This document shows, in pieces, positions 41,077 through 43,848 of a stretch of DNA of 51,581 bases. How positions within the stretch are numbered: position 1 is the first letter of the stretch; the number at the start of each line of letters is the position of its first letter. Below the pieces are notes generated by a model. The model did no database searches. It was given only the letters and a program-made list of their open reading frames with translations, and had not been told where the DNA came from. The stretch spans positions 1-51,581 of the forward strand of contig JAJRRB010000056.1 of assembly GCA_024279915.1 (NCBI GenBank). The letters run 5' to 3'. A program made the position numbers and the translations under genes. This DNA is from Deltaproteobacteria bacterium. Lineage in GTDB: Bacteria; Desulfobacterota; Desulfuromonadia; Desulfuromonadales; BM103.

Positions 41077-43848
41077 TTAAAAACCACCACCGAAACCCTG
41101 ACCCATGCCTAGACCCGAGAGGACAAAAGAGATCATAATCTCTTTATCATCCTTTTCGAACTCTCGGTAACGATTGCGGTAGGTCATAAAAATACTCCAG
41201 CATTTTGAACGATACTCAAGCCCAACAACCTTTTCCAGGGCACGGTTGTCACGGAAATCGTAGCGCTCTTCAAGACTGACATACACCGGTTTCAGAATAG
41301 GTGTATCAACCTTAACCTTGACATAATCAGTGGCAAGGCCAAAGAAATCTACATCCTTGTAGGAATAGTCAACTCTCAAGGCGTTACCTCGATCGTCCCT
41401 TATGGACGCACCAACGCTCAGAGTTCGAAAACGTGCGTCGGCATAAACAGGGATCCGGCTATCGAGGACCAAAGAGATATTCGGTGTCGGGCGAAGAGCC
41501 AACTCAACTCGCACATCAGAGAAAGGCTGATCCTCACCTGAGCGGTTGTTTCTTTCTTCATCAATATCGTAGCTCTGGGATAGACGCAGGTTCAGGATCT
41601 CACGGTAAGCACTCGAACCATCTGCGGCCTTACTGCGGGCAACCAGGCGATTGACCAAGGCATAAGCGATATCATTCTGACGTTCAATTCGGTCACTGAG
41701 ATCAAACAATGGCAGATCATCCTGGGATTCATCCGGCACATAGGTGTAGGTTGCTTTCGGCTCAACACTGTGCTGGATACGATCCATTCCCCAGTGGTTG
41801 ACATCGAAGCTCTTCACCAGTCTGGTTGCGAGAGACAAAGATAATTCAGGGACAAATTTCTCGTCATCGCCACTGTTGGTATTATAAATGCGTTCATAGA
41901 GAGCGACTTCAGGAATAATCTCAAGCCATGAACCAGGTTTGAATACTGCTGCTAATGAAGGTTTTAAAAAAAGTCGCTCGCCATCTTCACCTTTATCACG
42001 CCAGAAACTCGTCGCATAACTCTCCAGGCCAGCATAAAAAGACGTATCACCGAGACGGTAACGGGCCTGACTAAGCCCCACTTCGGGGAGTCGCTGTAAA
42101 GTCCTGTCGTTGTTAGTTTCAAGGTCCTTGGTGTAACGCGCATAACCAACCAGGTTGAGTTTCTGCCAGTTACGCATTAACATCAGAGACGAAACCGTTT
42201 TATCCTGGCTATATTCCTCAGCCGTCTCACCAAATTCTTCAAAAAAAAGTTTATCCTCGGTGTACTCAATATCGGCCATCAGACGCCAGTGACCAGGCAA
42301 CTTACCGCGATGCTCCCACTTCAGATAATAAAGATCGGGAATATCTTTATCCTCTTCAGGCCGCTTGGGGTTTGGGGTCTCTCCTAATCCGGTGACATGA
42401 TAATAAAGGGCCTTACCGTTATTCTGCTTTGCCAGGGCATAACGGTATTCAAGCCCCTTGCCGAGGCCAGTCTCAGAAAGATAATCAAGCGAGATCGTAG
42501 CGTCCATATTGCGATCAATAACTTGATACCAGGCCAGAGATGCCCGCGTCCCTTTGTTATTCGAGTAGCCAAATGAAGGCGTCAGGACCCCTGATTCTCG
42601 CTCTGTCCTTACCGGAAAGCTCAGGTAAGGCGTATAGAGGACCGGAACATCGTTGACATGGAACCAGACATTCTTGGCACGGGCATAACCACCCAGGGTA
42701 ACGTTGACTTCACTGGCAGAGAATTTCCAGTCAGGAATTTCACCATCACAAGTGGTGAAGCTACCTTGTTTAACGAAATACTCTGTCGCACTATGCTTTT
42801 CAATCTGTTCACCAATCAAATGGAAGTTGCCCTCGCGGACGAAGACCAGACCATCACGAATCTGGCCCTGGCCAGTGGCCATATTGTACTGCAGGCGTTC
42901 ACCAGAGATCTCTGCTTCAGCATCATTGAGGAAGACGGAACCTTGAGCGGCAACATCCTGAGTCGAAGACTGCCAGAGTAACTCATCCGACTTCAATTCG
43001 ACTCCAGCCTGGCGGAGGATGACATCACCCTTCGCCTCGTAGCTATCTTCCTCTGCATTGTACGCAAGGTAATCAGCAACCAATGAGACTTGTTTCTTTT
43101 GGTCAGCTTTTGGTGAAGGGTCTGTGGGTGAGGGTACCCCACTTTCTTTTCCAGCGCTAAGCTCAGGCAATTCTTCTGCGACATCAAGATGCTGGGCAGG
43201 AGCATGTTCTTCTTGTTGTGTCATTTGAGGCTCAGGGGACACTGGACCTTGGTCTGTGTCTGTATCTGACACAATAACGGGAGCATCTGCGGGTGAGGAA
43301 AGTTCAGGGAGTGCCGGAGTTGTCTGCCGAAACCCAGGAGTAACAAAGCTGCTGGCTCCGAGTTTTACCAGAAGAGTTCTGCCAGCGTGGCTTTCGTGTA
43401 TTGTCAAAAAAGCCGATCTTATTTGCTGACGTAAGATGTCATTCATCCCTTGGCGGGCGACGACGGCACCAGACAAGGAGCCAGAAGTATGCTCGAGATG
43501 TCTGACCAGAAGAGAAAACTGAACTGCCGACATTTCATCGAGAAAATCTTCGCTGAACCAGGCAACATCAACTTCACGGAAACGAGTCAACCATAGATAC
43601 AGCTGGTCTTCGGTAGCGAAACTGCGGATTTTTACCGGGATGGAGAGTTGGCTTTCCAGAATGCGGCTAAGCTCTTGCCCCTCTTCGGAAGAGGGGACTG
43701 GTCCACTCCCATCAACGGCAACACCGAGGGTGATCCCAGCCTGAGCAACCGCAGTCGTGAGTAGAGGTCCAAGAAGGAGTAGAGCAACGATAAACAATGT
43801 AAAGGGCATTGCCCCTGAAGTCAGACTTCGCATGACCTTACCCGTCAT
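41077..43848 (-). CDS. lptD: LPS-assembly protein LptD with an extra N-terminal PhnD-like segment
   Basis: LptD forms the outer-membrane barrel that, with LptE, inserts LPS. After a signal/anchor (about 14-35), residues about 38-172 resemble a shortened phosphonate-type binding protein (VDVAWFS, SLSGAVVARQGM, then LRQQIRSAFLTIHESHAGRT and ASSFVTPGF). A Pro/Glu/Asp-rich linker (173-252) follows. The LptA-like jellyroll runs from about 253 to 380, and the barrel fills the rest. Cys367 and Cys883 could form the N-to-C disulfide needed for maturation in other LptDs. At 923 residues it is well above what I expect for this group. The PhnD likeness is my reading of the motifs, not a search result. 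Confidence 0.93.
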   Translation of the reverse strand: MTGKVMRSLTSGAMPFTLFIVALLLLGPLLTTAVAQAGITLGVAVDGSGPVPSSEEGQELSRILESQLSIPVKIRSFATEDQLYLWLTRFREVDVAWFSEDFLDEMSAVQFSLLVRHLEHTSGSLSGAVVARQGMNDILRQQIRSAFLTIHESHAGRTLLVKLGASSFVTPGFRQTTPALPELSSPADAPVIVSDTDTDQGPVSPEPQMTQQEEHAPAQHLDVAEELPELSAGKESGVPSPTDPSPKADQKKQVSLVADYLAYNAEEDSYEAKGDVILRQAGVELKSDELLWQSSTQDVAAQGSVFLNDAEAEISGERLQYNMATGQGQIRDGLVFVREGNFHLIGEQIEKHSATEYFVKQGSFTTCDGEIPDWKFSASEVNVTLGGYARAKNVWFHVNDVPVLYTPYLSFPVRTERESGVLTPSFGYSNNKGTRASLAWYQVIDRNMDATISLDYLSETGLGKGLEYRYALAKQNNGKALYYHVTGLGETPNPKRPEEDKDIPDLYYLKWEHRGKLPGHWRLMADIEYTEDKLFFEEFGETAEEYSQDKTVSSLMLMRNWQKLNLVGYARYTKDLETNNDRTLQRLPEVGLSQARYRLGDTSFYAGLESYATSFWRDKGEDGERLFLKPSLAAVFKPGSWLEIIPEVALYERIYNTNSGDDEKFVPELSLSLATRLVKSFDVNHWGMDRIQHSVEPKATYTYVPDESQDDLPLFDLSDRIERQNDIAYALVNRLVARSKAADGSSAYREILNLRLSQSYDIDEERNNRSGEDQPFSDVRVELALRPTPNISLVLDSRIPVYADARFRTLSVGASIRDDRGNALRVDYSYKDVDFFGLATDYVKVKVDTPILKPVYVSLEERYDFRDNRALEKVVGLEYRSKCWSIFMTYRNRYREFEKDDKEIMISFVLSGLGMGQGFGGGF

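Follow-up and report, generated by a model that had tools for sequence, protein, structure and literature searches.

Many Gram-negative bacteria depend on LptD for survival. The binding proteins PhnD, PtxB, ArrX and AioX (PF12974, type II fold) are 250-300 aa long and built of two lobes, and LysM is a periplasmic anchoring domain found on inverse autotransporters and FimV-like proteins. The present study describes an LptD that bears at its N-terminus a domain of ~140 aa, related to the PhnD-type proteins, in which lobe 2 is missing. The earlier note's remark that its author knew of no description of such an LptD agrees with our survey of the open-licence literature, in which the titles and abstract openings of the matches listed revealed neither an LptD with such a domain nor a single-lobe PhnD domain.

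Layout of the LptD protein and its gene neighbourhood

The gene lies in a stretch of 51,581 nucleotides that was analysed as a whole (the window) and is laid out as follows:

41077-43848, minus strand: LptD open reading frame, 923 aa
43738..43848, minus strand: signal peptide, residues 1-37, recognised from the sequence, with cleavage expected after AQA (by eye)
43324..43737, minus strand: single-lobe PhnD-like domain (half binding protein), residues 38-175, identified by PF12974, a family profile searched against the PDB, hhalign, and AlphaFold2 with Foldseek
43111..43323, minus strand: linker rich in Pro, Glu, Ser and Ala, residues 176-246, delimited by composition and dN/dS
42667..43110, minus strand: LptA-like periplasmic part of LptD, residues 247-394, where OstA_2, LptD_N and LptC together match 249-355
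41080..42666, minus strand: LptD beta-barrel, residues 395-923, with PF19838 at 394-596 and PF04453 at 507-833

Judged by its profile matches, the protein combines an LptA-like domain with an LptD barrel: both barrel profiles exceed their cut-offs (PF04453, 128.2 bits; PF19838, 71.9 bits) and OstA_2 barely exceeds its own (21.3 against 21.2), while the LptD_N and LptC scores lie below theirs and the NCBIfam LptD equivalog scores 174, short of its cut-off of 683. The linker (18% P, 11% E, 11% S and 10% A) is presumably disordered. An LptE partner is encoded in the same genome (one PF04390 match, E 1.6e-12) and was found in 35 of 40 relatives, both with and without the LptD domain; since LptE is present, the idea of the domain as its replacement was rejected.

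The ten neighbouring genes scanned, a set that left out two short ORFs (101 and 135 aa) adjoining lptD, belong to the FtsH, TilS, SPOR, ArgS, Mur-ligase, carboxyl transferase, TrpA, UDG, DEAD helicase and PALP families, and none of them is an ABC transporter or sensor kinase gene. LptDs of relatives without the domain have open frames of 686-798 aa, except for one of 927 aa (G025), whose start resembles, by eye, read-through upstream of a later start.

Sequence and fold evidence for a single PhnD-like lobe

The earlier note had proposed a reduced PhnD-like segment at the LptD N-terminus from a set of short motifs, all of which are present: VDVAWFS at residues 93-99, VVARQ at 129-133, LRQQIRSAFLTIHESHAGRT at 139-158 and ASSFVTPGF at 165-173. 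The profile search that it recommended gave 28.8 bits (E 9.9e-7) for PF12974 on the isolated segment 38-175, above the cut-off of 27, and 23.3 bits on the whole LptD, below it. When the window's own genome was searched with PF12974, the LptD site ranked fourth among nine matches; TIGR01098 gave only 11.8 bits for LptD. Single-sequence searches with the segment returned no binding protein from the PDB and no relatives from the genome contig collection. Among 20 other hosts of the domain, PF12974 exceeded its cut-off in three (L089, 94.6; L097, 56.5; L104, 27.1), scored below it in seven (19.3-26.2) and had no match at E 0.01 in ten.

A profile built from 22 diverse domain copies (alignment A1) matched ArrX (7.5e-6 and 1.5e-5) and PhnD proteins (2.6e-5 and 3e-5) in the PDB; weaker matches were AioX (0.0047-0.016), MCA1014 (0.0068), which is the protein named a sterol transporter in other searches, and PtxB (0.014). 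Of these binding proteins, PtxB alone was matched in the N-terminal half (23-98); the matches of the rest lie in the C-terminal half. Comparison by hhalign with four full-length PhnD proteins aligned the C-terminal part with a probability of 97.8 (E 1.2e-12) and the N-terminal lobe in a second, much weaker alignment (probability 12, E 0.0024). The PF12974 profile is covered at 155-236 by the window's LptD and at 14-92 by L108 (below cut-off), and the lobe-2 part between these stretches is uncovered in both.

Structure prediction and comparison, likewise recommended earlier, placed ArrX first. AlphaFold2 models of the LptD copy (pLDDT 83.6, pTM 0.80) and of a copy from Geothermobacter hydrogeniphilus, whose host belongs to a group of DUF4388 proteins (pLDDT 90.1, pTM 0.83), were built from the same 11 sequences and are not independent because of this common alignment. 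Foldseek against the PDB ranked ArrX at the top for both, followed by AioX, PhnD, PtxB and XAC2383; all of the top ten rows were PhnD-family structures for either model, with TMq of 0.63-0.75 and large rmsd (4.6-9.7). In most alignments 144-147 domain residues were stretched over ~240-260 columns of the two-lobed proteins (for ArrX, 144 residues over about 241 columns), and some weaker rows for the Geothermobacter copy were aligned over 86-97 columns only. The large rmsd and the long column span are expected if one lobe is skipped. Single-lobe constructs were also matched, namely TmArgBP by both models and LAO by the LptD copy. A chance match of motifs was rejected by the Pfam, family-profile, profile-profile and structure results. 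The earlier observation of a reduced PhnD-like segment at this place is confirmed.

Taken from profiles and predicted models, these results support a type II binding-protein fold in which lobe 1 is kept and lobe 2 has been removed. A pair of lobes enclosing a ligand cleft was not found in the domain, and the family assignment is supported for the fold and not for a working two-lobed binding protein. The domain would have originated as the first lobe of a PhnD/ArrX-type protein, lobe 2 having been lost and the N-terminal beta-alpha-beta-alpha-beta unit now running straight into the return strand and helices of the C-terminus.

Five positions are invariant in A1 (G7, L29, L33, R54 and D59, corresponding to LptD residues 42, 64, 68, 89 and 94), and they surround a stretch close to WLxRFREVD. 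Across 95 copies the weighted fractions are 0.89 for W86, 0.80 for R89, 0.91 for F/Y90, 0.69 for R91 and 0.93 for D94, and residues of the domain are conserved across host groups; PhnD proteins show xxG opposite residues 89-91 in a low-confidence alignment. The loop that follows strand 1 (residues 45-53) is poorly conserved.

These observations bear on whether the domain still binds a small ligand such as phosphate, phosphonate, arsenate or a lipid, in one lobe or between two facing copies, and adjusts its host accordingly. The nearest structures include ArrX and AioX, which were solved with arsenate and arsenite according to their titles; two further entries, 7a99 and 6y16, show by title an arginine-binding protein's single lobes in complex with ligand, and a bacterial sterol transporter of the same fold was matched as well (7t1m). 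The DUF4388 host, moreover, resembles a signalling protein, with an MshE-type motif matched in both hosts scanned, though below its cut-off (33.4 and 18.3 against 38) and, by our reading, response-regulator-like genes nearby. Against this, lobe 2 is absent and one half of the usual site is lost with it, the loop at 45-53 is poorly conserved, and a topology argument would put W86, R89, F/Y90 and R91 where helix 2 ends, at a distance from the former cleft. We consider this explanation unlikely, and the lack of a second lobe weakens the earlier suggestion that the domain senses a phosphate compound.

Hosts, distribution and evolutionary history

A search with the segment across 58 genomes, the window's own included, gave matches in 22. 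Within the window's order, A1 at E 1e-5 matched 49 of 136 genomes; sorted by position, match range and frame length, 31 of the 136 carry the reduced domain, and in the other 18 every match starts at or beyond profile position 59, in frames of 227-369 aa that were taken to be ordinary PhnD proteins. Outside the order, 277 genomes of the class and a sample of 395 from the phylum yielded six matching genomes at E 1e-9, all of them with frames of ordinary PhnD size (298-356 aa) that match only from position 58 on; at most 14 (class) and 10 (phylum) candidates were scored per genome, so that, with the E 1e-9 threshold, weaker copies may be missed. Eight loci are named (four Deltaproteobacteria, one Desulfuromonas, one Geothermobacter and two Desulfuromonadales) and, coming from one pattern in an alignment search, do not form a census. 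One tblastn query with the window's segment found no match in a plasmid collection, and spread on plasmids is accordingly not supported by that search.

In the fetched loci, which include many but not every domain match and to which all host counts refer, 75 ORFs longer than 200 aa matched the profile; similarity of the regions outside the domain divides them into nine groups plus four single hosts. The groups are LptD (18 ORFs, one a contig-cut fragment, with the window's as a 19th), a membrane-anchored DUF4388 (PATAN) protein (17), a family for which we coined the label G3 (16), a metallo-beta-lactamase fold (6), an Ig-like repeat protein (4), TolC/OEP (3), PgaA (3), a group U2 (2) and an inverse autotransporter (2); one of the single hosts (L181) is a full-length PhnD. 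Names were assigned from Pfam and NCBIfam scans of representative members, and for the DUF4388 hosts the Pfam scan covered six of 17, the remainder being grouped by similarity. The survey of relatives' LptD N-termini that had been called for thus finds the domain on 18 fetched LptDs besides the window's, in a patchy pattern and not confined to LptD; the notion of an LptD-only feature was rejected, the domain being found on at least nine host groups. In the window's own genome it is found on LptD, on a DUF4388 protein and, as two copies, on a G3 protein. The domain is a mobile, lineage-specific module that occurs on a wide range of hosts.

Most of the hosts printed have the domain directly after a signal-peptide-like stretch (by eye); a signal-peptide pattern was counted in 69 of 70, a pattern too loose to prove cleavage. 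All 17 DUF4388 hosts are built alike: the signal peptide and domain are followed by a linker of 124-181 aa in which P, A, E, K, T and S abound, then by the stretch of highest hydrophobicity (mean hydropathy 1.5-3.0) and finally by the presumably cytoplasmic part. The domain is matched least strongly in PgaA and the inverse autotransporters (four of five copies at E ~4e-15 to 1e-9, the fifth at 2e-20), and PF12974 had no match in the four such hosts scanned.

Several hosts were noted in passing. The metallo-beta-lactamase-fold hosts include L095 3248-4969 and L096 3802-5406, the best NCBIfam similarity of the latter being a quinoprotein-relay zinc metallohydrolase, far below cut-off. L106 8210-10618 (G040) encodes three tandem domain copies with a C-terminal TPR-like part and lies ~3.9 kb from a one-copy G3 gene of the same genome, and L186 3810-4457 (G016) encodes 215 aa comprising a signal-peptide-like start, one weak domain (E 3e-11) and a short tail.

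On a tree of 34 LptDs, which omits eight of 38 LptD matches (no locus) and the G004 fragment, the domain requires eight gains or losses, at least six of them on supported branches, and it is present in one member and absent from the other of sister pairs such as G007/G009, G018/G012 and G015/G019. A midpoint-rooted tree of 95 domains, which excludes two ORFs and one short match, joins 14 LptD copies of the window's family in one group (99/95); as the LptD copies of two other families are not resolved relative to that group, one or several fusions to LptD are possible. The TolC copies of G001 and G006 nest inside the LptD group (100/99), those of G010 nest inside the G3 group with six G3 copies (100/99), and the inverse-autotransporter copies are placed among DUF4388 copies (98/85). 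The TolC of G001 and G006 is about 1300 aa long with three N-terminal domain copies, that of G010 is 1050 aa with two C-terminal copies (L167), and orthologues in G013, G014 and G016, 65-71% identical, have open frames of only 553-563 aa. TolC took up the domain at least twice. The domain-bearing TolC loci are L089 3679-7608, L090 1576-5427 and L167 3537-6665; the gene adjoins, by our reading, a HlyD-like gene.

In nine pairs that we chose from 36 possible ones, and which share genomes, the domain had a dN/dS of 0.18-0.28 in all nine, against 0.11-0.17 for the LptD core (the seven pairs having a core) and 0.56-0.87 for the linker (the seven of nine where it was computable). The domain is under purifying selection. 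One LptD stood apart: between G005 and G001 the domain is 69% identical with a dS of 0.73 (L074 2106-2549), the core is 90% identical with a dS of 0.42 and the linker has a dS of 0.28, as if the domain of G005 had been exchanged.

The patchy presence, with its eight changes on the LptD tree and sister LptDs lacking the domain, is what would be seen if a signal peptide and a first lobe had been fused by chance and had spread as a harmless, neutral or lightly used passenger. We regard this as quite improbable, given the low dN/dS of the domain in every pair against that of the linker, the residues kept across host groups, the tandem copies and its uptake at the N- as well as the C-terminus of the same TolC. 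The related idea of a decayed relic, raised earlier, is likewise unlikely because of the purifying dN/dS and the renewed acquisition of the domain by unrelated proteins.

The LptD domain co-occurs with the DUF4388 gene, which is present in 16 of 18 genomes with the LptD domain and two of 16 without it (Fisher 1.4e-5, a test that ignores shared descent). On supported branches six independent pairs were available, of which 4.6 changed in the same way, none in the opposite way and 1.4 showed no difference (p 0.0625). Of the 31 genomes that carry the reduced domain, 28 have the gene, as does one of 103 others searched, a contrast that is partly circular because the DUF4388 protein carries the domain itself. 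Exceptions are G008 (a fragmented assembly) and G018, with the LptD domain and no DUF4388 match; G009, with the domain on G3 and no DUF4388 match; and G025 and G034, with DUF4388 and no LptD domain. G050 has the reduced domain in the DUF4388 protein only, so a second domain-bearing protein is not required. The DUF4388 frames of G016, G020, G071, G073 and G131 end at contig edges with their N-termini uncovered, and that of G115 has a short N-terminus without the domain.

The G3 core (~140 aa; L104 5982-6389 and relatives in L216-L241) occurs in 55 of 134 genomes and had no Pfam match in the five hosts scanned. In most of the domain-free genomes sampled G3 is a lipoprotein, and elsewhere it carries one to three half-binding-protein domains. 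Among domain-free copies with a readable N-terminus, a lipobox was found in 22 of 24 (20 by the strict pattern, a looser one being needed for G104 and G041), against none of 16 domain-bearing copies, one of which (L185, G133) has a disrupted reading frame and was assessed by description alone. The domain-free set comprised 25 of about 36 genomes, G011 being excluded from the count for its cut N-terminus. Two independent pairs on supported branches show the switch (p 0.5); for 15 domain-bearing rows, the "no lipobox" state used in this test was carried over from the 0/16 count. Loss of the lipobox fits a module that replaces an anchor, and its absence is expected anyway because an N-terminal fusion removes the lipobox by construction.

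Proposed function and comparison with known systems

With somewhat more confidence than doubt, we propose that the domain is a mobile periplasmic docking or tethering module, derived from lobe 1, that recruits outer-membrane exporters. It is joined, usually behind a signal peptide, to many envelope proteins of the order; on its flexible linker it would bind a common envelope partner, and this binding may hold or recruit exporters such as LptD and TolC. By co-occurrence, the best candidate for the partner or organiser would be the inner-membrane DUF4388 (PATAN) protein, with its own domain on the periplasmic side, or alternatively another binding target of this protein, for instance peptidoglycan. 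Host range, conserved patch and distribution point to docking, none being proof: the hosts share little except the envelope, several of them being outer-membrane exporters or adhesin-like; W86, R89, F/Y90 and R91 would lie, by topology, away from the ancestral ligand site; and the domain is co-distributed with DUF4388. A reusable docking part is likelier than a nutrient sensor because relatives carry the module on several unrelated envelope proteins, and the existence of sister LptDs without it means that it is dispensable for LptD's basic work. Of the earlier proposal that the domain docks LptE or LptA, the docking idea is retained; the restriction to these two is too narrow, as LptE is present regardless of the domain and the domain also occurs on proteins outside the Lpt system.

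A more elaborate form of docking, which we hold doubtful, would be a binding protein split across the envelope, with the DUF4388/PATAN protein in the inner membrane and LptD, TolC, PgaA and inverse autotransporters in the outer membrane contributing one lobe each on long linkers. The DUF4388/PATAN protein, possibly through an MshE-like (c-di-GMP-type) cytoplasmic motif, might then relay cytoplasmic signalling by contacts between lobes, or between lobes and a common partner, and so gather or gate surface export. Less probable still than a passenger is a chaperone-like part or delivery tag that aids the folding or targeting of its host without stable contact, since the position at or near the mature N-terminus in most hosts printed and the several large outer-membrane hosts that suggest it are offset by the non-barrel hosts (DUF4388, metallo-beta-lactamase fold and G3) and by the domain near the C-terminus of one TolC (L167).

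As a docking module, the domain would exemplify an old ligand-binding fold that has been trimmed to a single lobe and put to new use as a mobile part, and the occurrence of the same half binding protein on LptD, TolC, PgaA, adhesin-like and membrane-anchored DUF4388 proteins offers a natural experiment in the organisation of outer-membrane machines. LysM-type anchors likewise sit at a periplasmic N-terminus ahead of a long linker on unrelated envelope proteins; their fold is unrelated to that of the domain, for which peptidoglycan binding is conjecture only. With described LptDs the protein shares the barrel profiles, the LptA-like part and an LptE in the genome, and it differs by the extra N-terminal domain and linker. 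With PhnD, PtxB, ArrX and AioX the domain shares the profile, the order of secondary structure in lobe 1 and the C-terminal VVxRxG strand and helices; unlike these proteins, it is fused to others, has no transporter gene among the ten neighbours scanned and bears the conserved W86-R89-F/Y90-R91.
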